NCBI GenBank assembly: GCA_002167285.1
Contig: NHDG01000067.1
Span: 86,093-150,092, forward strand
Origin: Planctomycetia bacterium TMED53
Lineage (GTDB): Bacteria > Planctomycetota > UBA8108 > UBA1146
Direction: 5' to 3'
DNA: 64,000 nt
How positions within the stretch are numbered: position 1 is the stretch's first letter; the number at the start of each line of letters is the position of its first letter. Positions 77 through 13,716 of this stretch are shown here, one piece after another. A program made the position numbers and the translations under genes. The notes under the pieces were generated by a model. It ran no database searches. It was given only the letters and a program-made list of their open reading frames with translations, and was not told the DNA's origin.

Positions 77-1309
77 ATGTTTCTTGCCCGTGGACGGAAA
101 AGTCTTCCCCTCGGATACGAGATGAATGCCCACCCGGCGAGCAGCGTAGAGGACTTCCACGCTGCTCTGCGAGACTTCGTGTTTCCGGTGCGGGAAAAAG
201 TCTGCCCTGGAAAACCATTCGCCATCGCTCCGCACATCGGCGCAGCGCTCGTGAAGCAATTGGCCCAGCCAGGTCTCGCAGAGAGAGTCGGTTCTTACCT
301 TCGCGACTACGATCTTCACCTATACACCGTAAACGCATTTCCGTTGAAAGATTTTCACGCCCGCCGTGTTAAAGAATTGGTTTATCAACCCTCTTGGGCT
401 CAAGGCTCTCGAGCACAGCTCACCTGCAAGATCGCCGATGTGCTCGTACGGATGTCACCAAGCTCAAAACTGTTGACCATCTCTACCCTCGGTGGCGGAT
501 ATCGCCCAGCGGGGAACAGCCGGAAGACTCTGCAAAAGATGGCCATCAATTACTTGAAGGTGGTCGCTCACTTGGCACGCATCGAATACGACAGCGGCTA
601 TCGCATTCTTTTGAATGCAGAACCCGAGCCCGATACCACCTTTGAGTGTGCTGAAGATGTCATTTCTTTTTGGCAGCAATACCTTCAACCAGGGATCGAC
701 GATCTCGCTGGGGAACTTCAGTGCTCAAAACGCAAAGCCGAAAAACTGCTCCGCCGGCATTGGACCGTCAATCTCGATGCATGCCACTCAGCAGTACTCT
801 TTCGATCGCCCCTTGAAGATTTGAATATGCTCGACGCGGAAGGTATCCAAGTCGGAAAATTTCATGTCACCAGTGCTCCTGCACTGAAGAACCCCGGACG
901 CTCAGAGGAAGGGCTAGCTGAGTTGCTCGCCCACGTAGAACCACGATACCTTCATCAGACAGCACTACAGCTGAAGGATGGCTCCATCGAGCGACTTGAA
1001 GATCTGCCCCTGCTCCGTAGGCGAGATCTCTCGGATGTCCGCGAGGTTCGCACCCATTTCCATGTGCCTTTGTCGCGGGCACGGCACGGCAAACTCGCCA
1101 CTACTCGCGGCGATGCCCTCGCTCTCCTCGAAGAGGGATTGCGTCGGCAACATCCACGCAAGGGCCCCCACCTCGCCATAGAAACCTACACCTGGCCCGT
1201 GCTCACCAAAGGTCTCCGCAAAAAAGAGCGCCAACAAAAATTGATCGACGGCATCGCCGCAGAGCTACGCTGGGCGAAGAAAGCCTCTTACCTGGAATTC
1301 GCCGAATAA
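77..1309 (+). CDS. eboE: EboE-like TIM-barrel metabolite traffic protein
   Basis: N-terminus LPLGYEMNAHPASSVEDFHAALRDFVFPVREK and VKELVYQPSW…LLTISTLGGGYRP resemble the EboE family; ends TAA. Confidence 0.7.
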   Translation: MFLARGRKSLPLGYEMNAHPASSVEDFHAALRDFVFPVREKVCPGKPFAIAPHIGAALVKQLAQPGLAERVGSYLRDYDLHLYTVNAFPLKDFHARRVKELVYQPSWAQGSRAQLTCKIADVLVRMSPSSKLLTISTLGGGYRPAGNSRKTLQKMAINYLKVVAHLARIEYDSGYRILLNAEPEPDTTFECAEDVISFWQQYLQPGIDDLAGELQCSKRKAEKLLRRHWTVNLDACHSAVLFRSPLEDLNMLDAEGIQVGKFHVTSAPALKNPGRSEEGLAELLAHVEPRYLHQTALQLKDGSIERLEDLPLLRRRDLSDVREVRTHFHVPLSRARHGKLATTRGDALALLEEGLRRQHPRKGPHLAIETYTWPVLTKGLRKKERQQKLIDGIAAELRWAKKASYLEFAE

Positions 1310-1745: not shown

Positions 1746-3896
1746 TTATAGCGGCTTCTCCAACATCAAGACTCCCTTGCCGCGACCGATGTACTGGCCC
1801 ACTTCGCGGAATCCCAAGGAATGGTGAAAAGCGATGCTGGTTTCATTGCGCGGTTGAAGATTGACTTCACAGACTAAGCGCTCAAGTCCTCGACTCCGTG
1901 CCCATGCCTCTAAGGTCAGATAAAGAGATTCGCCGATTCCTCGACGTCGGGCACGGCTATCGACAGCAATACGATCGATGTACGCAAATCGTTTAAACCC
2001 TCTTCTGAACCAAAGAAAGTTGGGACTGTCGTAATCGGAGTCCCGCTTCATCACGACGAGAAGCCCGGCGGGATCTATGGCACAAGTCTCGGGGTCATCG
2101 ATGGTCCAAACTCGATGAGCACGATCGATGAGGTGCGAAAAATCCTCTGCTTTGAGAGATCCCACCTCAGGTGCATTCGCCTCATTCAGTTGATGGAGAG
2201 CATGCAATCTCTCTTCGGTGACCGTTTCTTTGTGTCGGCGATCGCCATCACGAATCGATTCGATAATTCGATCGCTCCACTTACGAAGGGCAGGATCTTG
2301 CAGCTGCCTCGCCATCGCTTCGAGCCCTTGGCGCCAATTTTTTCGTAAACATCGGCGATCCTCTTCATCAGGGAAGCAGCGAAGAATGCAACGCAGACGA
2401 TCGCTTCTGCTAAAAGAATCAGAGTAGTGACTGATCACTCCCAAAACATCTTCGAGACGCTCTTCAGCACTGATCTCACCTTGGTACTCAAGACAACAGG
2501 GATCGACACTGACGTGAACTCCACGAGAAGTTTCATCGATGTACCAATGATCAGGGCTTGCCTTCCGCAATCGAATCCCCTGCCGCTGCCGCTGAAGAAC
2601 GGAGTCGAGCACCGCAAACATCGGTCGGAGGTCTGATGAACTCATGCCGCCTTCCTGAAGCCACCGGCGTAGTGAATTCCCTGACGATTCCTTCTCGATG
2701 AGATGCTGACTCCAAGCGCCCTTCTGCTGCGATTGCCTAAACAGAAAAACAGGAGGACTTCGATGCAAAAGAACCTGCTCGATCAGATTACCTTGCCAAC
2801 CTCTTTGCAGACCTTCCCTGAGAGATTCCCCCCTCAATGTACGCTGGAATCTACTTCGAATACGTGGCGGGAAATCATGATCCAGAAAGCCGTGAGATCG
2901 CCAGTACGTCCAACCATCACCATTCTTTCGTGAAGCACTTCGTCGAAGCCCTCTGCGAAGACGGCGTTGGCGACGGCGTCGCTCCCTCGATTCGACTTTC
3001 GATTCCAATCGCTCTCTTTTGTGAGGGCATACCGATTGAACTTGAATCCCATCACTGAATCGAATCGGGCCCACCCCCCAACCGCTGTTGATACCCAGAT
3101 TCCTAGCGGCCGCTGCCCACCCTTCGAGCATCGCCTCGACATCGTTTCCAGCACGGGATCCGCCCAATGCCTGCGCGACCTGCTCCAACATCTTCTCTTG
3201 AGCTGATTCGAGAACCGAGACGCGGCGGCGAGCGTCATGGAGATCGACAACCCACAACTGAGTCGATGGGGCATCGTGACCACGGGCGAGAATGTTCCCG
3301 GTGTGAAGATCCCGCGCTTCAATTCCCGCCCGCGCGAGCTGCGCCACCAATGCACCGAGACGGTGCAAAACATGGACTCTTTCGTCGCCGGCGTAGCGCT
3401 CCAAATAAGTGGGAAATGGCTCAGTATCGAGGAGGAACTCGGTCACCACTCCATCCCCTGAAGGGGACGAGAACCATGCTACAGGTCGCGGCACTGGAAC
3501 ATTCAACTGCTCAGCCTGCTTCAAGAATTGCCATTCGAGTCGAGCCCGCCCCCAACCCAGCTTTCTGCGCAATCGCGCAAAAGGATCCGATTCCCGATGA
3601 ATCTTCACCAGCAAAGTAGGGCGTGATGGGGAGGGAGGAATCGCGACCAATTCCCGGTCACCACGTTTTTGAATCGGTTCGATGCCTGGAAGTTGCAGAA
3701 TTTCATCGGCCTCGAATGGCAATCCAGATAACCAATCTCGACGCCGATGAACGACTTCCTTCAAACCGTCTGCAGAGAACCCACCCAAACCATTCAAGAA
3801 GGGATGATTGCGGTAGGTTTCTTCAGTTTGTTGATGCACGGTTCCCCTCCGCTGAATCTCAATAGTTGCGGCTGAATCGTACCGCCTCCCCAGCAC
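1746..3896 (-). CDS. Fusion: WaaP/InaA-like lipopolysaccharide kinase domain, second kinase-like region, C-terminal GNAT acetyltransferase
   Basis: ARAGIEARDLHTGNIL…LWVVDLHDARRR (kinase catalytic and metal motifs); C-term IDRIAVDSRARRRGIGESLYLTLEAWARSRG…SIAFHHSLGFREVG (GNAT motif A). Confidence 0.7.
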   Translation of the reverse strand: MLGRRYDSAATIEIQRRGTVHQQTEETYRNHPFLNGLGGFSADGLKEVVHRRRDWLSGLPFEADEILQLPGIEPIQKRGDRELVAIPPSPSRPTLLVKIHRESDPFARLRRKLGWGRARLEWQFLKQAEQLNVPVPRPVAWFSSPSGDGVVTEFLLDTEPFPTYLERYAGDERVHVLHRLGALVAQLARAGIEARDLHTGNILARGHDAPSTQLWVVDLHDARRRVSVLESAQEKMLEQVAQALGGSRAGNDVEAMLEGWAAAARNLGINSGWGVGPIRFSDGIQVQSVCPHKRERLESKVESRERRRRQRRLRRGLRRSASRKNGDGWTYWRSHGFLDHDFPPRIRSRFQRTLRGESLREGLQRGWQGNLIEQVLLHRSPPVFLFRQSQQKGAWSQHLIEKESSGNSLRRWLQEGGMSSSDLRPMFAVLDSVLQRQRQGIRLRKASPDHWYIDETSRGVHVSVDPCCLEYQGEISAEERLEDVLGVISHYSDSFSRSDRLRCILRCFPDEEDRRCLRKNWRQGLEAMARQLQDPALRKWSDRIIESIRDGDRRHKETVTEERLHALHQLNEANAPEVGSLKAEDFSHLIDRAHRVWTIDDPETCAIDPAGLLVVMKRDSDYDSPNFLWFRRGFKRFAYIDRIAVDSRARRRGIGESLYLTLEAWARSRGLERLVCEVNLQPRNETSIAFHHSLGFREVGQYIGRGKGVLMLEKPL

Positions 3897-4046: not shown

Positions 4047-5393
4047 ATGGCCAAACAGTCCTTCGATCGAGCACATCAGGACTTACCCCAGCAGGAAACT
4101 GAACGGGACCGGGCCATCGTCCTCAAAGCGTTGACCCCCGGCGACCCCTCAGAAACAGTGAGTAACGTCGATCCCATCGCCGAGATCACCGCTCTCGCCG
4201 ATACCGCAGGGGTGGATGTGGTCGACTCCGTGTTGCAGAAGAGACCGAAACCCCACACTGCAACATACGTGGGTAAAGGAAAACTGGAAGAACTCGCTGA
4301 AGCAGCCCAGGAACATGAAGCTCACCTGATCTTGGTCGACGACCCCATCTCGCCAGCTCAAGGGCGTAACATCGAAGCCGCGACAGAACTCCGCGTCGTC
4401 GATCGTTCTGAATTGATTATGGATATCTTTGCACGCAATGCGCGCACCCATCAGGCGAAGATTCAGATCGAGTTAGCGCAGTTGAAATACTTTCAATCTC
4501 GACTCACCCGAATGTGGACTCACCTTTCCAGGATGGAAGGTGGAGCGGTCGGTACCCGCGGCCCCGGTGAAACGCAGTTAGAAACGGACCGCCGAATTAT
4601 TCGCCGTAAGATCTCCTTACTTCACAAACGCCTGGATGAAATCGAGAAGCAGGCAAACACCCAGAATAAATCCCGCGCGGAGTCCCTCCGAATCGCCCTC
4701 GTCGGTTACACCAATGCTGGGAAGTCGACACTGATGAAGCGACTCACCGGCGCGGATATCTTGGTGCAGGATCGCCTCTTTTCGACCCTCGATACCAGCA
4801 CTCGTAAGTGGGAGTTGGATTTGCCCTTTGATGTGCTGCTCTCTGATACGGTCGGATTTATTCGTAAACTGCCCCACGATCTAGTCGCCTCATTCCATGC
4901 CACCTTGATGGAGGCACGGGAAGCGGATCTCTTGCTCCACGTGATCGATGCATCTTCTCTAACCGTTGATTTTGATATGGAATCGGTAGAAAGAACCCTG
5001 CAGCGCATCAGCTGTGGAGATCACCCATGCTGGCTCGTCTTCAATAAGTTGGATCGATTGCAAGAGGAGCGCCGCATCGATCTACAGCATCTCTTGGCAG
5101 AAAATGAAAACTCTTTCGCCATCAGCGCGGGAACCGGAAGCGGAGTGGATCTGCTCGTAGAAAAGATCGTCGAGCTGGGGCAGCAGCGGCAAGAGTCCGG
5201 CAGCTACCAAATCCCCCATTCGCGAGCAGATCTGGTCGCTAAGTTGCGTCAAAATGCCCATATCGAAACAGAGAACTTCCTCGAAGACGGCATCCATTTG
5301 GAAGTGCTCTTTAAACCGGGGATGAAAAGTCGCTGGGAGAGCGCTCTTCAGGAAGCAGGATTGTGGCCTCAAGCCCGATCCGAATCTTCCTGA
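4047..5393 (+). CDS. hflX: GTPase HflX
   Basis: YVGKGKLEEL, GPGETQLETDRRIIRRKI, GYTNAGKSTLMKRLTG, DTVGFIRKLPHDLVASFHATL. Confidence 0.96.
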   Translation: MAKQSFDRAHQDLPQQETERDRAIVLKALTPGDPSETVSNVDPIAEITALADTAGVDVVDSVLQKRPKPHTATYVGKGKLEELAEAAQEHEAHLILVDDPISPAQGRNIEAATELRVVDRSELIMDIFARNARTHQAKIQIELAQLKYFQSRLTRMWTHLSRMEGGAVGTRGPGETQLETDRRIIRRKISLLHKRLDEIEKQANTQNKSRAESLRIALVGYTNAGKSTLMKRLTGADILVQDRLFSTLDTSTRKWELDLPFDVLLSDTVGFIRKLPHDLVASFHATLMEAREADLLLHVIDASSLTVDFDMESVERTLQRISCGDHPCWLVFNKLDRLQEERRIDLQHLLAENENSFAISAGTGSGVDLLVEKIVELGQQRQESGSYQIPHSRADLVAKLRQNAHIETENFLEDGIHLEVLFKPGMKSRWESALQEAGLWPQARSESS

Positions 5394-7485: not shown

Positions 7486-10400
7486 ATGTTCAAAAATCGA
7501 TCATTTCTCGCTCTGACGGCGACCCAATTCCTCGGTGCGTTCAATGACAACATCTTCAAGCAGTTCATCCTTTTGATCGCGCTACAGATGAGTCTTGAAT
7601 ACCTACCTCTGGATGCCCAAGCGGTGGCGATGGGGATCTTTGCTTTTCCATTTGTCATGTTTGCCTGCCTGGGTGGGTCCATCGCCGACCGAGTCCCCAA
7701 ACGCCGAGTGATCATCCTCGTCAAATTGAGTGAAATCTTCGTCATGATTCTTGGAATGGGTGCTTTCTTCCTCGCCAAATCTGATCCAGATCTGGGGATC
7801 ATGGCGATGATGGGCGTTCTCTTCCTCATGGGAACCCAGAGTGCATTCTTCGGTCCGTCAAAATTTGGAATCATTCCAGAGACGGTCAGTGAATCGAATC
7901 TGACCCGAGCAAATGCCATCATCAGCATGACCTCGAACATCGCCATCATCCTTGGAACGACATTCGCGGGATTGATGTTCCTCTTCCTCAATCCTGGAGG
8001 AGACCTGACCCAGGGTTACCCCAACTGGTACAGCGGCGTCATCTTCATCTTCATCGCGATCATCGGCTGGATTTGTGCTCAAAAAATCAAATCCGGAGCA
8101 GAAGCGAGTGCACCCCATCGAAAACTGGAGTGGAACCCGATTCATGAGTTGCGTCACCTCGCGACCGACAAGCCTCTCCTTGGAGCAGTGATCTCCACCG
8201 GTTGGTTCTTCCTGATCGGTGCGCTCGCATTGGCCTCCCTCAATGTATGCGGTAAAGAAGTGTTGTCGTTAGGAGATGGGGGCTCCCGCCTCTTCTTCTT
8301 CGTCGCCGGCGGAATCGGCTTGGGCAGCCTATTAGCCAGTAAACTCTCGGGGGACAAGGTCGAGATCGGCATCGTTCCCGTAGGGGGAATTTTGATGACC
8401 GCCGGCTTTGCCCTGACCACCATCGTCGAAGAAACGCTGCTCGGTTACGGATCAACGCTGACGATCGCCGGAATTGGCGGCGGCATGTTCTTGGTACCTC
8501 TTGTCGCATACATCCAAGAACGCTCCCGCGGAGAGGAGCGGGGGAAAATCCAAGGTGCCTCTGAATTCGTCACCTTTTCCTTCATCTTCATGTCCGCACT
8601 CGTATGGGACTTTTTCGTCAACACCAACATGCTCGCCCTGAGCCCGGAAGGCACTCTACTGGCGATCGCTGTGCTGGCATTGACGGGAACACTGGGTGTC
8701 TTCTTTGCCGTCCCCCACATCGCCGTGCGATTCCCGGTTTGGATCCTCGTACACACTCTCTATCGGATTCGAATCCTTGGTATGGAAAACGTTCCACGCC
8801 GCGGAGGAGCATTGCTGGTCGTCAATCACTTGTCCTACGCAGATCCATTCCTCGTCGGAGCCTCGATCCCTCGCTTTGTACATTTCCTTATGCATCGTCA
8901 ATTCAAGGACATGGGGCTCATCGGTTGGGCAAGCCATCTGATGCGCGCGATACCGGTCTCCAGTGATGATGGCCCCCGTGCCATCATCCAGTCCTTAGAA
9001 AACGCAGCCGAGCACGCTCGCAATGGAAACATCGTCTGCATCTTCGCTGAGGGGGGGATTTCTAGAACCGGTAACTTACTGCCATTCTCGAAAGGCCTCG
9101 AAAAGATTGCCCGAAAAGCGGACGTTCCCATCATTCCGGTCTACCTCGATCGGGTCTGGGGCAGCATCTTTTCATTCCGCGGTAAAAAATTCTTCTTCAA
9201 ACGTCCGCTGCGATTGCCATACCCGGTCACTGTCACCATCGGTGAGCCGATGGCTCCCGATTCCACCGCCCGACAAGTCCGTTCGCGAGTGGAAGAGCTG
9301 AGTGCTCTCGCCCTCGATTCACGCAAACAAAAGGGAATCACCCTCGCCACCCGCTTCCTCACGGTTGCTCGAAAATCTAGTGGCAGAACTGCGGTTATCG
9401 AAAAAGATCGCCGCCTCTCATTCCGCAAATTTCTAATTCTTGTGCTGCTCCTACGAAGGAAACTGCGCAAGCGATTAGAGGGACAACAGAATATCGGGGT
9501 GATTCTTCCCTCCGGAGTCGGCGGCGCTGCGATCAACATCGCTCTGACCGTCATGGGAAAAACGGTCAGTAATCTGAATTTCACCGCCGGCACAGCGTCG
9601 CTGAAATCTGCTTGTGAACAGTTAGAGCTAAAGACCATCATTTCAGCAAAGATGTTCACCAGCAAAATTGATATGGACATCTCAGAATTCGCGCCCGATG
9701 TCGAAGTCATCGACCTTCCCGCATTGCTGACACGCGAGGTCTCCACCGGGGACAAGATCATGGCGATGCTCACAGCTTTACTGCCATCGACTTTCTTGCG
9801 CTCTCTGCCAGGAGTTCCCCAAGATCCAGATCAAGATGTTTCAATCATGTTCTCATCAGGATCTACTGGCACGCCCAAGGGAGTGCGACTCTCACACCAC
9901 AACATCCTTTCGAATGTGCGTAGTGTTTCACAAATCTTTGATGTCGATCACAAAGATCGGGTCGTCGGCTCTCTGCCCTTCTTCCATGTCTTTGGTTACA
10001 CCATCACTCTTTGGTTCCCCCTTGGAAATGCGATCGGCGCCATCTATCACAATAATCCGATGGACACCGACATCATCGCCGAGCTCACCAGAGATCACAA
10101 AGGCACGATCTTCCTGTCAACACCGACCTTCTACAGAACCTACCTGCGACGCTTCCAACCGGAAGATTTCCAATCGGTTCGGATCGCAGGTGCTGGAGCA
10201 GAGAAGCTGAAAGCGAGTCTTGCCGAAGCTTGGGAGGAGCGCTTCGGCTCACCACTCCTTGAAGGTTATGGCTGTACCGAACTGAGCCCGGTGGTATCGG
10301 TGAATCTTCCAGATATCGATGTACCCGGATTCCGTCACAAGACCCGCAAACTAGGAACCATCGGGCTTCCAATTCCAGGTGTAGTCACCCGCGTCGTTGA

Positions 10401-10950
10401 TCCAGAAACAGGAGAAGATCTCCCCCATGGGGAAGCAGGCCTACTTCTGATTAAAGGCCCCAGTGTGATGCAAGGATACCTGGGCAGGGATGACCTCACC
10501 GCAGAAGCGTTCGACGGAGAATGGTACAAGACCGGAGACATCGCCAAGGTCGACGAGGATGGCTTCCTCGTCATCACCGACCGCTTGTCTCGATTCTCTA
10601 AACTCGGCGGCGAAATGGTCCCCCATGTGCTGATTGAAGAAGCCATCCAAGAAATCATCGACGCTGCGATTCCCGATGAGGAGGAAACGGATGGCGAAGC
10701 GATGGTCGCTGTGACAGCAGTTCCCGATGAATCAAAAGGGGAAAAGCTCGTGGTCGTTCATGGCGAACTCCCCATCGACCCTCCCGAAATCCTCGAAAGC
10801 TTGAGAACCCGTGGGGACTTGCCTAATCTCTGGCTGCCCCGAAAAGAAGCATTCGTGCCTGTCGCGGAGGTCCCACGCCTGGGATCAGGAAAACTGGATT
10901 TGAAAGCGGTCAAAAACCTGGCCCTCGATCACTTCGGAATCGGCGGTTGA
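7486..10950 (+). CDS. aas: MFS (LplT-like) / PlsC acyltransferase / AMP-binding acyl-ACP synthetase fusion
   Basis: N-term MFS TATQFLGAFNDNIFKQF; NHLSYADPFLVGA acyltransferase box; MFSSGSTGTPKGVRLSHHN AMP-binding motif. Confidence 0.92.
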   Translation: MFKNRSFLALTATQFLGAFNDNIFKQFILLIALQMSLEYLPLDAQAVAMGIFAFPFVMFACLGGSIADRVPKRRVIILVKLSEIFVMILGMGAFFLAKSDPDLGIMAMMGVLFLMGTQSAFFGPSKFGIIPETVSESNLTRANAIISMTSNIAIILGTTFAGLMFLFLNPGGDLTQGYPNWYSGVIFIFIAIIGWICAQKIKSGAEASAPHRKLEWNPIHELRHLATDKPLLGAVISTGWFFLIGALALASLNVCGKEVLSLGDGGSRLFFFVAGGIGLGSLLASKLSGDKVEIGIVPVGGILMTAGFALTTIVEETLLGYGSTLTIAGIGGGMFLVPLVAYIQERSRGEERGKIQGASEFVTFSFIFMSALVWDFFVNTNMLALSPEGTLLAIAVLALTGTLGVFFAVPHIAVRFPVWILVHTLYRIRILGMENVPRRGGALLVVNHLSYADPFLVGASIPRFVHFLMHRQFKDMGLIGWASHLMRAIPVSSDDGPRAIIQSLENAAEHARNGNIVCIFAEGGISRTGNLLPFSKGLEKIARKADVPIIPVYLDRVWGSIFSFRGKKFFFKRPLRLPYPVTVTIGEPMAPDSTARQVRSRVEELSALALDSRKQKGITLATRFLTVARKSSGRTAVIEKDRRLSFRKFLILVLLLRRKLRKRLEGQQNIGVILPSGVGGAAINIALTVMGKTVSNLNFTAGTASLKSACEQLELKTIISAKMFTSKIDMDISEFAPDVEVIDLPALLTREVSTGDKIMAMLTALLPSTFLRSLPGVPQDPDQDVSIMFSSGSTGTPKGVRLSHHNILSNVRSVSQIFDVDHKDRVVGSLPFFHVFGYTITLWFPLGNAIGAIYHNNPMDTDIIAELTRDHKGTIFLSTPTFYRTYLRRFQPEDFQSVRIAGAGAEKLKASLAEAWEERFGSPLLEGYGCTELSPVVSVNLPDIDVPGFRHKTRKLGTIGLPIPGVVTRVVDPETGEDLPHGEAGLLLIKGPSVMQGYLGRDDLTAEAFDGEWYKTGDIAKVDEDGFLVITDRLSRFSKLGGEMVPHVLIEEAIQEIIDAAIPDEEETDGEAMVAVTAVPDESKGEKLVVVHGELPIDPPEILESLRTRGDLPNLWLPRKEAFVPVAEVPRLGSGKLDLKAVKNLALDHFGIGG

Positions 10951-11006: not shown

Positions 11007-11348
11007 ATGGCCCCCGAGCAGGAACCTGATCTAGGAATCCGAAGTTTTCAAAAAACCATCGAAAGCATCTACTTCGAAAAAGATTCCAAACGCGGAGTAG
11101 AAGGCTCATTCATGTGGCTGGTCGAGGAGGTTGGAGAACTGGCACGCTGCCTAAACTCCCCCGATGCGAACTCCCCTGAAGAGCAAGCTGAGTTTGCCGA
11201 TGTCCTCGCCTGGCTGGCCAGCATCGCCTCCATTAGAGGGGTCGATCTTGCGACCTGTGTGAATCAAAAATACGGAACCGGCTGCCCGCGCTGTGATAAA
11301 ACCCCCTGTAACTGTCACCACCGTGAAGAGAAATCGACCCAACAATGA
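11007..11348 (+). CDS. MazG-like nucleotide pyrophosphohydrolase with Cys-rich tail
   Basis: WLVEEVGELARCL…EEQAEFADVLAWLASIA; C-term YGTGCPRCDKTPCNCHH; ORF can extend to 10947. Confidence 0.8.
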   Translation: MAPEQEPDLGIRSFQKTIESIYFEKDSKRGVEGSFMWLVEEVGELARCLNSPDANSPEEQAEFADVLAWLASIASIRGVDLATCVNQKYGTGCPRCDKTPCNCHHREEKSTQQ

Positions 11349-12574
11349 AGAAACTGGGAGTCCTCGACCGTTACCTACTAAAGGATCTCATCGTCTCGAC
11401 CCTCTTCAGTCAATTGGTGTTGTGCGTCCTCGTCAGCATCGTCTTTGCTATGAAAGCGGTCAGCTCCGGATACTCCTTGGGGATCGTCATCCCTTGGCTC
11501 GGTGATAGCCTCCTTTACAGCATGTACTTCACGACGCCGATGTCCGTGATGGCTGGTTGTAGTCTCAGTTACGGTAATTTCGTCGCCGATCGAGAATACA
11601 CCGCTGCCGTCGCATCAGGCATCAGCCCATCCCGGCTCTTCCTACCGATGACGATGCTCATCATCCCTATCTTGATGCTGCTGATGTTCACTCAATCGAC
11701 ACTGCTCCCTGAACTTCAACACCGCAAACAAGACATTAGCCGCTTTTTTGTCAAGCAGCTGGAAAACATCGGTGACGGCAAAAAGGGACAGATCCCCCTC
11801 GACGATCAAGGCGGAGTCATCTACTGGGAAGAGATCCGCAATGGAACAGATCTCAAGGTGGTCTTCATCGAGAAACAGCTCAATGTTTCGGCAGGAGGTG
11901 CAGTTGCCAACTCTTCTGTAACCGATGAAACTCCTCCAACAAAAATAAATGCCAGACGAGCAAAGCTCAGTGTCGACGAAGAACGAGGGCTCATTCGCCT
12001 GACCCTTCGTGATGTCAGTGTGGTGTTTCCGGTTAACAGCTCTCCAACGGGGCAAAAAGAGTTCCTTGATTGGGATCACGAAACGATCGAGTTTGATCAG
12101 TTCAATGTGGACTTCCCTGTCAGCTCAAGGAACCGTAGACCCAACGACTTACCTACCGCTGAATTGGCAGAGCGCGTCACGTTGCTCAAAGCGGAGGTAA
12201 AAGAGATCGGGGAAACCTGGAACACTCTTCCAACTGCCGAAGAGAAACAGAAAAGTGAACTACGACAGGCTAATCTGACCCGCTCTATCCGCAGAGGCGA
12301 GACTGAAATTTGGCGTCGTAGAGCGATGGCTTTATCAGTCCTCACCTTTGCATTGATCGGATCTCCCCTCGCCCTTCTGATGAGGACACCCCAAAAACTA
12401 GTGCCCTTCTTCTTCTCACTACTGGCAGTACTCGCCGTCTTCTACCCCCTCACTTACGGAGGAATCCAACTGAGCAGGGCCACCGGCGCACCCCCTTGGC
12501 TAACAGTTCTTTCAGGGAACTACATCTTGCTGGGGATCTCTTTGGCGATGCTTTTCAGATTGAGGACGCGATGA
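11345..12574 (+). CDS. LptF/LptG family permease
   Basis: N-term LDRYLLKDLIVSTLFSQLVLCVL; GISPSRLFLPM; C-terminal TM cluster. Confidence 0.87.
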   Translation: MKKLGVLDRYLLKDLIVSTLFSQLVLCVLVSIVFAMKAVSSGYSLGIVIPWLGDSLLYSMYFTTPMSVMAGCSLSYGNFVADREYTAAVASGISPSRLFLPMTMLIIPILMLLMFTQSTLLPELQHRKQDISRFFVKQLENIGDGKKGQIPLDDQGGVIYWEEIRNGTDLKVVFIEKQLNVSAGGAVANSSVTDETPPTKINARRAKLSVDEERGLIRLTLRDVSVVFPVNSSPTGQKEFLDWDHETIEFDQFNVDFPVSSRNRRPNDLPTAELAERVTLLKAEVKEIGETWNTLPTAEEKQKSELRQANLTRSIRRGETEIWRRRAMALSVLTFALIGSPLALLMRTPQKLVPFFFSLLAVLAVFYPLTYGGIQLSRATGAPPWLTVLSGNYILLGISLAMLFRLRTR

Positions 12575-13716
12575 AAATTTGGAATCGCCCGCCTCTTAAA
12601 TGGTTGCCGTTGAAAACCATCGACAGATACCTGATCCGGCAGTATCTGGTTTCTTGGTGCATCTGCTCTTTCGCGATTCTCTCCCTCTTTTGCGTGATCG
12701 ATGGAGTCTCAAGGCTTGACCGCTTCCTGCGCCATGATCAACCTTTGCCATTGGTGATTCTGCGATACTTCTCAGGAATGATTCCCATCTACTTCACCCA
12801 GTACTTGGGCCCGATCTTGACTCTCTTTGCGGCCATGTTCACCGCAACACAAATCAATAAGGGCCGTGAACTGATCCCGTTGCGAGCGGCAGGGATTCCA
12901 CTTCCAAGAATCTTGGCTTCATTCTTCCTGATGGCTTTGTTGATGTCGGGCTTGATGATTTTAGTTCAGGAGACGGTAGTCCCCTCTCTTAAGGACGAGA
13001 TCCGCCTTGCCGATTCATACGGTCGATCACGAACCAATATTCAGCCAGAGATGGTGTCAGATAGCCTCAACAACCTCATCAAAGTCACGAGCTATCTCCC
13101 CCACGAAAAGAGGGGGCAAAAAGCTCGGATCATGAGCCTCCATGCGGGTTCAGGAAAACTGGAAACCCTCATCAGTGCTCGCGAGTTGATTTGGAAATCC
13201 CCGGAATCAGGGCAGCCCTATTGGCTCCTACGTGAAGGCAAGAAGGAGCAGTATCACGAGAATGGCCAAAAGGTGCCATTCCCCCAACCAGATGGCACTG
13301 TTCGACTTAGCTTGGCATTCGACGAGCTCAAGTTGGAAACGGATATGCGCCCTGTAGACCTAGAATCCAGTGACAATGAAATCGAATATCTCTCCTTCAG
13401 GGAATTGCGAGATCAGTACAAACGTCGACCCCATCTCACCCACCTCGAAGTCAAACTTCACCGACGCTTCGCATTCCCCCTAGCAAACTTCATCCTGTTA
13501 CTATTGGGGATCCCGTTCGTGATGCGATCGGAGAGCCAATCGATCATCCTCGGTCTATCGATGGCCCTTGCTCTTGGAACGGCCTACCTGATTTTCACCG
13601 AGATCTGCGCCCACTTAGGAAATATTGGCGGACTCAACCCGATGCTGTCAGCGTGGCTACCGGTTCTCTTTTTTGGAGCGCTGGGATTAACTCTGTTTGA
13701 TGGCATCGAAGACTGA
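12571..13716 (+). CDS. LptF/LptG family permease (second copy)
   Basis: ATGA overlap with preceding gene; KTIDRYLIRQYLVSW; LIPLRAAGIPLPRIL; HRRFAFPLANFILLLLGIPF. Confidence 0.9.
   Translation: MKIWNRPPLKWLPLKTIDRYLIRQYLVSWCICSFAILSLFCVIDGVSRLDRFLRHDQPLPLVILRYFSGMIPIYFTQYLGPILTLFAAMFTATQINKGRELIPLRAAGIPLPRILASFFLMALLMSGLMILVQETVVPSLKDEIRLADSYGRSRTNIQPEMVSDSLNNLIKVTSYLPHEKRGQKARIMSLHAGSGKLETLISARELIWKSPESGQPYWLLREGKKEQYHENGQKVPFPQPDGTVRLSLAFDELKLETDMRPVDLESSDNEIEYLSFRELRDQYKRRPHLTHLEVKLHRRFAFPLANFILLLLGIPFVMRSESQSIILGLSMALALGTAYLIFTEICAHLGNIGGLNPMLSAWLPVLFFGALGLTLFDGIED

Follow-up and report, generated by a model that had tools for sequence, protein, structure and literature searches.

The gene near the start of the 64,000-nucleotide stretch of Planctomycetia bacterium TMED53 DNA analysed here (the window) encodes a WaaP/Kdo tandem kinase whose second kinase has decayed and whose C-terminus carries a fused GNAT acetyltransferase. 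Family scans, orthologues, a comparison of profiles and a predicted structure all support the three-part fusion proposed in the initial annotation (a WaaP/Kdo-type kinase followed by a degenerate kinase and a GNAT), and we regard both the architecture of the protein and its derivation as well supported.

The fusion gene is a single uninterrupted 716-aa open reading frame that occupies the minus strand between GTG 3896 and a stop at 1746; the initial annotation had reported this frame correctly, without its strand. The called start at GTG 3896 is probably wrong, and the true start is probably GTG 3839 (697 aa), since GGAGGGGAACC precedes GTG 3839, with an SD-like GGAGG 5' of it, and the starts of orthologues match its position, several of them with a purine-rich site before the matching start. 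No such site accompanies GTG 3896, and the 697 aa counted from GTG 3839 are close to the orthologue lengths of 664-698 aa. Another 12 genomes of the family carry full-length orthologues of the fusion (40-60% identity, same frame, no stops). These genomes are mostly marine Planctomycetota metagenome assemblies, and the homologue collections from which they come are samples. A single-sequence search of the genome contig collection returned no relatives of the fusion protein, while an alignment-based scan of it returned 12, nearly all labelled as marine Planctomycetota metagenome-assembled genomes and a few bearing generic or odd labels (a pattern-based scan of this collection detects close relatives only). 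The gene is present, single-copy and syntenic, in 13 of the 17 genomes of the order, and kinase 1, the kinase 2 remnant and the GNAT are all kept in 13/13 fused genomes; one family member that is 82% complete (G007) gave no match to the fusion gene. A frameshift in the Arg-rich hinge, a concern raised in the initial annotation, is ruled out because the 12 orthologues carry the fusion open in one frame and dN/dS of the linker (aa 286-335) is 0-0.3, a sign of purifying selection. The open orthologue frames and the dN/dS values indicate that hinge and middle are translated, in frame and under selection.

Table 1. Coordinates of the fusion gene, its parts and neighbouring genes in the window.
Feature	Coordinates	Strand	Basis
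Fusion CDS, probable	1746..3839	-	697 aa from GTG 3839; frame open up to GTG 3896 (716 aa)
Kinase 1, WaaP/Kdo family (aa 45-300)	2997..3764	-	Pfam Kdo, invariant columns, Foldseek match to WaaP 6dfl, residue table
Arg-rich hinge helix (aa 291-320)	2937..3026	-	Alignments; helix H291-318 of the model; in frame
Low-confidence linker (aa 321-360)	2817..2936	-	pLDDT < 50 in 313-403; kinase 2 beta1-beta3 and ATP-binding Lys missing
Kinase 2 remnant, pseudokinase (aa 361-532)	2301..2816	-	hhalign, residue table, PDB fold matches, dN/dS
GNAT domain (aa 561-716)	1749..2216	-	Pfam Acetyltransf_1, invariant columns, Foldseek
hflX GTPase, divergent	4047..5393	+	Pfam; synteny; anchor next to the kinase in every examined member of the order
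Presumed EboE-like protein gene	77..1309	+	Synteny cluster 2; anchor on the other side of the fusion gene
Two LptF/LptG permease genes (LPS export machinery)	11345..13716	+	Pfam PF03739, 5e-40 and 2e-56

Domain 1 is, by family, a WaaP/Kdo-type lipopolysaccharide kinase, for which activity on an LPS core sugar is predicted. The Pfam Kdo/WaaP model (PF06293) matches aa 109-244 at 1.3e-13 (51.3 bits against a cut-off of 21.3), and the best solved-structure match to the kinase 1 model is WaaP (6dfl; Foldseek E 9.2e-10, TM-score 0.63 by target length). Scores fell below the NCBIfam equivalog cut-offs for RfaP (18.7 against 170 bits) and KdkA (30.2 against 142 bits). Residues K98, E121, D196, N201 and D218 are invariant in 13/13 fused proteins, and dN/dS of kinase 1 is about 0.1 in most pairs. 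The domain had been described as a kinase with intact RDLHTGN and VDLHD motifs; both motifs are indeed present, but the His of HxD is replaced by Ala194 in every fused protein aligned, whereas it is His in 11/11 tandem relatives. This Ala stands at aa 194 although the rest of the kinase 1 active site is kept in all fused proteins, and since kinase 1 retains its Pfam match and its remaining catalytic residues, the change is a departure within PF06293, not an exclusion from the family.

Profile comparison identifies the middle of the protein as what is left of kinase 2 of an ancestral tandem kinase, now a pseudokinase. A Pfam scan of this region gave no family above its cut-off. Its profile matches kinase 2 of the tandem kinases (hhalign 96%, E 2.7e-9) and, more weakly, their kinase 1 (E 3e-7); descent from a copy of kinase 1 of the same protein is ruled out (hhalign E 0.16). 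The alignment with tandem kinase 2 begins at template column 90 of 293, past the upper N-lobe, and the earlier description of this region as a repeat of the kinase N-lobe layout has to be abandoned, because the upper N-lobe is precisely the part that was deleted. The Arg-rich hinge that precedes it is the counterpart of the RSRxRRC segment with which kinase 1 ends in tandem kinases. The catalytic loop aligns without gaps (IHHRDLNPSNW in the unfused relative G010, IRLRKASPDHW in the fusion protein); thus, the catalytic Asp became Lys445 and the Asn became His450. At the Asp position the other fused proteins carry Ser, Asn or Gly, and at the Asn position Arg, Phe, Glu or Gln; the ATP-binding Lys of kinase 2 falls in a gap in all fused rows. 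The initial annotation had found no HxD or DFG equivalent here, which holds for the Lys, the catalytic Asp and the Asn, but not for the DFG-type Asp, which persists as D465 in 13/13 fused proteins; W451, G440 and Y471 are likewise invariant. The remnant has evolved at about double the rate of kinase 1, and its dN/dS is mostly about 0.2 (range 0.12-0.40), with purifying selection in every pair tested. AlphaFold2 (13 sequences) gave a pLDDT of 70 for the whole protein; the middle on its own scored 73, its elements following an order like that of a kinase C-lobe. The linker is disordered in the model. All of the top 50 PDB fold matches of the middle are kinase-fold entries, including Bud32 and WbdD (E 3e-4 to 6e-3, low TM-scores); since these E-values are modest and the TM-scores low, we treat the profile comparison as the main evidence and the fold search as supporting.

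The C-terminus is an intact GNAT, with acetyl-CoA-dependent transfer as its predicted chemistry. Pfam Acetyltransf_1 matches aa 627-696 at 9.7e-13 (48.9 bits against a cut-off of 20.7), the RRRGIG motif pointed out in the initial annotation is present, and R650, G653 and G655 of the acetyl-CoA motif R650xxG653xG655 are invariant in 13/13 fused proteins, as are the YxSPNFxWF and CEVNLxPRN motifs. Foldseek matched the GNAT model to RimI, Ard1 and other GNATs, a PDB sequence search gave only two matches, both weak and both GNAT, and dN/dS of the domain is mostly 0.02-0.2, reaching 0.28. We suspect that it belongs to COG3818, on which we found no paper among the open-access literature searched. 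Within the class, GNATs of this type are limited to this family, with a single copy in each genome that has one: 13 genomes carry it fused and two carry it free. Elsewhere in the phylum sample there are five free-standing relatives, in unrelated contexts and with no shared neighbours. PADLOC gave only MkoA (E 0.02, 10.5 bits), and an anti-phage defence protein was rejected as a candidate identity.

The pairing of a kinase fold with a GNAT invites the interpretation that the protein is a bifunctional, antibiotic-type enzyme that inactivates an aminoglycoside-like or other aminated small molecule by phosphorylation and acetylation, since the same two folds are fused in the documented bifunctional enzyme AAC(6')-Ie/APH(2'')-Ia (PMC5722643) and the GNAT finds its best NCBIfam match in an AAC(6') group model. 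We consider this improbable because that match scores 37.9 bits against an equivalog cut-off of 140, kinase 1 falls in Kdo/WaaP and not in APH (no APH match up to E 1 in Pfam), plasmid matches are only two and distant, the gene's synteny and single copy across the order are unlike those of a mobile resistance gene, and the tandem-kinase relatives stand in glycosyltransferase operons. Kinase family, synteny and score cut-offs thus disfavour the aminoglycoside-enzyme analogy.

The derivation of the fusion can be read at its own locus, where unfused relatives occupy the same position beside hflX. In G016, from a sister family, a tandem kinase is followed by a GT2 gene without a GNAT; G012 has a tandem kinase, GT2 and a free GNAT gene; and G010 has a tandem kinase and a free GNAT gene but no GT2. 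Both active sites are intact in the sister-genus tandem kinases beside hflX. In the kinase 1 tree the fused proteins form a single clade (100/100), with G010 and G012 nearest (87/80) and G016 outside with weak support (68/43); the stem branch of the fused clade is long (1.8 changes per site). Among the fused proteins found, none has an intact kinase 2, and a search for GT2 relocated elsewhere in the fused genomes gave no match at E 1e-8. The protein that we take to be EboE-like, on the other side of the fusion gene, matched no Pfam family. As read from sequence, these comparisons establish that the hflX locus ancestrally encoded a tandem WaaP/Kdo kinase in which both active sites were intact, that within the family a GNAT gene became the downstream neighbour of this kinase and, in a single lineage, was joined to the kinase C-terminus, and that the upper N-lobe and catalytic loop of the second kinase disappeared in the fused lineage. 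The simplest order would begin with a tandem kinase accompanied by GT2, followed by arrival of the GNAT gene, then loss of GT2, and last by fusion of the GNAT and decay of kinase 2, in either order. Because G010 is without GT2 and yet retains an intact kinase 2, loss of GT2 alone did not kill kinase 2.

The constancy of hflX as a neighbour also bears on function. Together with PRPK and Bud32, which follow WaaP among the Foldseek matches of the kinase 1 model, and with RimI and Ard1 among those of the GNAT, it is compatible with a translation-linked enzyme that, like Bud32/PRPK and RimI, has a ribosomal or tRNA-modifying target. We consider this very improbable: hflX is divergent, is not co-transcribed and neighbours the unfused kinase just as it does the fused one; Kdo matches at 1e-13, Bud32 models at about 1e-4 to 1e-3; and tandem kinases across the phylum go with glycosyltransferases. 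The PRPK/Bud32 fold matches are expected in any case because KdoK, Rio and Bud32 are related families (PMC1821047).

Double kinases of the tandem WaaP/Kdo type (~560 aa) occur commonly in Planctomycetota, with a match at E 1e-30 in 112 of 199 sampled genomes, a count that includes single-domain matches and fused proteins. Both kinases keep Lys, Asp and Asn in nine aligned tandem relatives. Among the 30 best loci for these kinases (L120-L149), a GT2 or GT4 match lies no more than 1.5 kb away at 24, with both at 14; without the two loci that supplied the glycosyltransferase queries the count is 22/28. The same queries run against control DNA (the 64-kb window and 18 neighbourhoods) matched only genes beside tandem kinases. 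A frequent operon of the double kinases has the order GT4 - double kinase - GT2 (- single kinase). We found no published description of Planctomycetota tandem WaaP/Kdo double kinases or of InaA/WaaP-type kinases in the open-access papers searched. The glycosyltransferases beside tandem kinases support an envelope-glycan role for the kinase lineage. The genome itself encodes LpxC, WaaA (Kdo transferase) and LptF/LptG, and therefore has LPS biosynthesis and export genes. Its only other Kdo/WaaP-like kinase match (L154:5811-7223, minus strand; G000:C65) is single-domain and lies away from glycosyltransferases. At 7486-10950 (+) the window also holds a 1154-aa MFS transporter - acyltransferase - AMP-binding fusion, presumably akin to a lysophospholipid transporter/Aas-type enzyme.

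On this evidence we somewhat favour, with substrates that are predicted, a role for the fusion as an envelope-glycan (LPS-core-type) kinase in which the second kinase has turned into a scaffold carrying an acetyltransferase. For the kinase part, the envelope-glycan role suggested in the initial annotation agrees with the glycosyltransferase operons of the close tandem-kinase relatives and with LpxC, WaaA and LptF/LptG in the genome. With ATP as donor, kinase 1 would phosphorylate, at the cytoplasmic face, a sugar in the core linked to lipid A or in another envelope glycan; the dead second kinase would serve as a scaffold or acceptor-binding platform joining the two enzymes; and the GNAT would pass acetyl from acetyl-CoA to an acceptor, most likely an amino sugar in the same glycan intermediate or in a neighbouring one, so that the fusion protein would act as a two-step glycan-decorating enzyme. 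The scaffold role of the pseudokinase is a guess from its conservation. We caution against carrying the envelope-glycan role of the kinase lineage over to the fused protein as more than an inference, because no fused genome carries GT2, which means that the direct glycan context was lost in exactly the fused lineages, and because loss of the HxD His and the long stem branch suggest that the substrate of kinase 1 may have changed. The constant neighbour hflX is not an envelope gene and also speaks against an envelope function, and GNATs also modify proteins and small molecules, which counts against a glycan as acceptor of the acetyl group.

An alternative interpretation is that the envelope kinase and the GNAT act on different substrates, the fusion merely joining neighbouring genes and the pseudokinase being a relic spacer with no binding role. 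The unrelated contexts of GNAT relatives elsewhere in the phylum, the faster evolution of the remnant, its truncated N-lobe and the disordered linker of the model would all fit, but we consider this interpretation unlikely because D465, W451, G440 and Y471 are invariant, the remnant is under purifying selection in every pair tested and the three parts are kept together in every fused genome. A more specific form of the favoured scaffold model, which we advance tentatively and with low confidence, is that a glycan-modifying, two-phosphate tandem kinase became a one-phosphate, one-acetyl enzyme, in which kinase 2 survives solely as a scaffold that binds the acceptor and the fused acetyltransferase has replaced its chemistry on the same envelope glycan. 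The stages of active tandem kinase, tandem kinase with neighbouring GNAT, and fusion with dead kinase are all alive in relatives.

The locus presents an enzyme rebuilt in place with its intermediate stages alive, an active kinase having become a conserved pseudokinase as another transferase fused behind it. Across the phylum, the glycosyltransferase operons that contain tandem WaaP-like kinases also offer a handle on Planctomycetota envelope-glycan chemistry, in which core sugars and decorations are little known. Among known systems, the WaaP/RfaP core heptose kinase and the KdkA Kdo kinase (PF06293) share with kinase 1 the Lys, Glu, Asp, Asn and Asp that it has kept, but WaaP is single-domain, whereas the fusion adds a pseudokinase and a GNAT and has Ala for the HxD His. 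The tandem double kinases of Planctomycetota are its direct unfused relatives, found at the same locus with the same order of kinase 1, RSRxRRC-type hinge and kinase 2; they differ in that both kinases are intact and no GNAT is present, and the fused lineages are without their glycosyltransferase neighbours. AAC(6')-Ie/APH(2'')-Ia likewise joins a GNAT and a kinase-fold phosphotransferase in one chain, but with an APH-family kinase, an antibiotic substrate and no pseudokinase between the domains, and its domain order is the reverse of that in the fusion protein. The best precedent for how a kinase-transferase fusion could work is WbdD of the Escherichia coli O9a O antigen, in which a eukaryotic-like kinase fused to a methyltransferase modifies one LPS glycan in two steps (PMC3482155). 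WbdD resembles the fusion protein, whose own substrate is predicted, in combining a kinase with a second group-transferase in one chain (PMC3482155), but its partner is a methyltransferase at the N-terminus, it has a C-terminal coiled coil and no pseudokinase, and it methylates the phosphate that its kinase has added.
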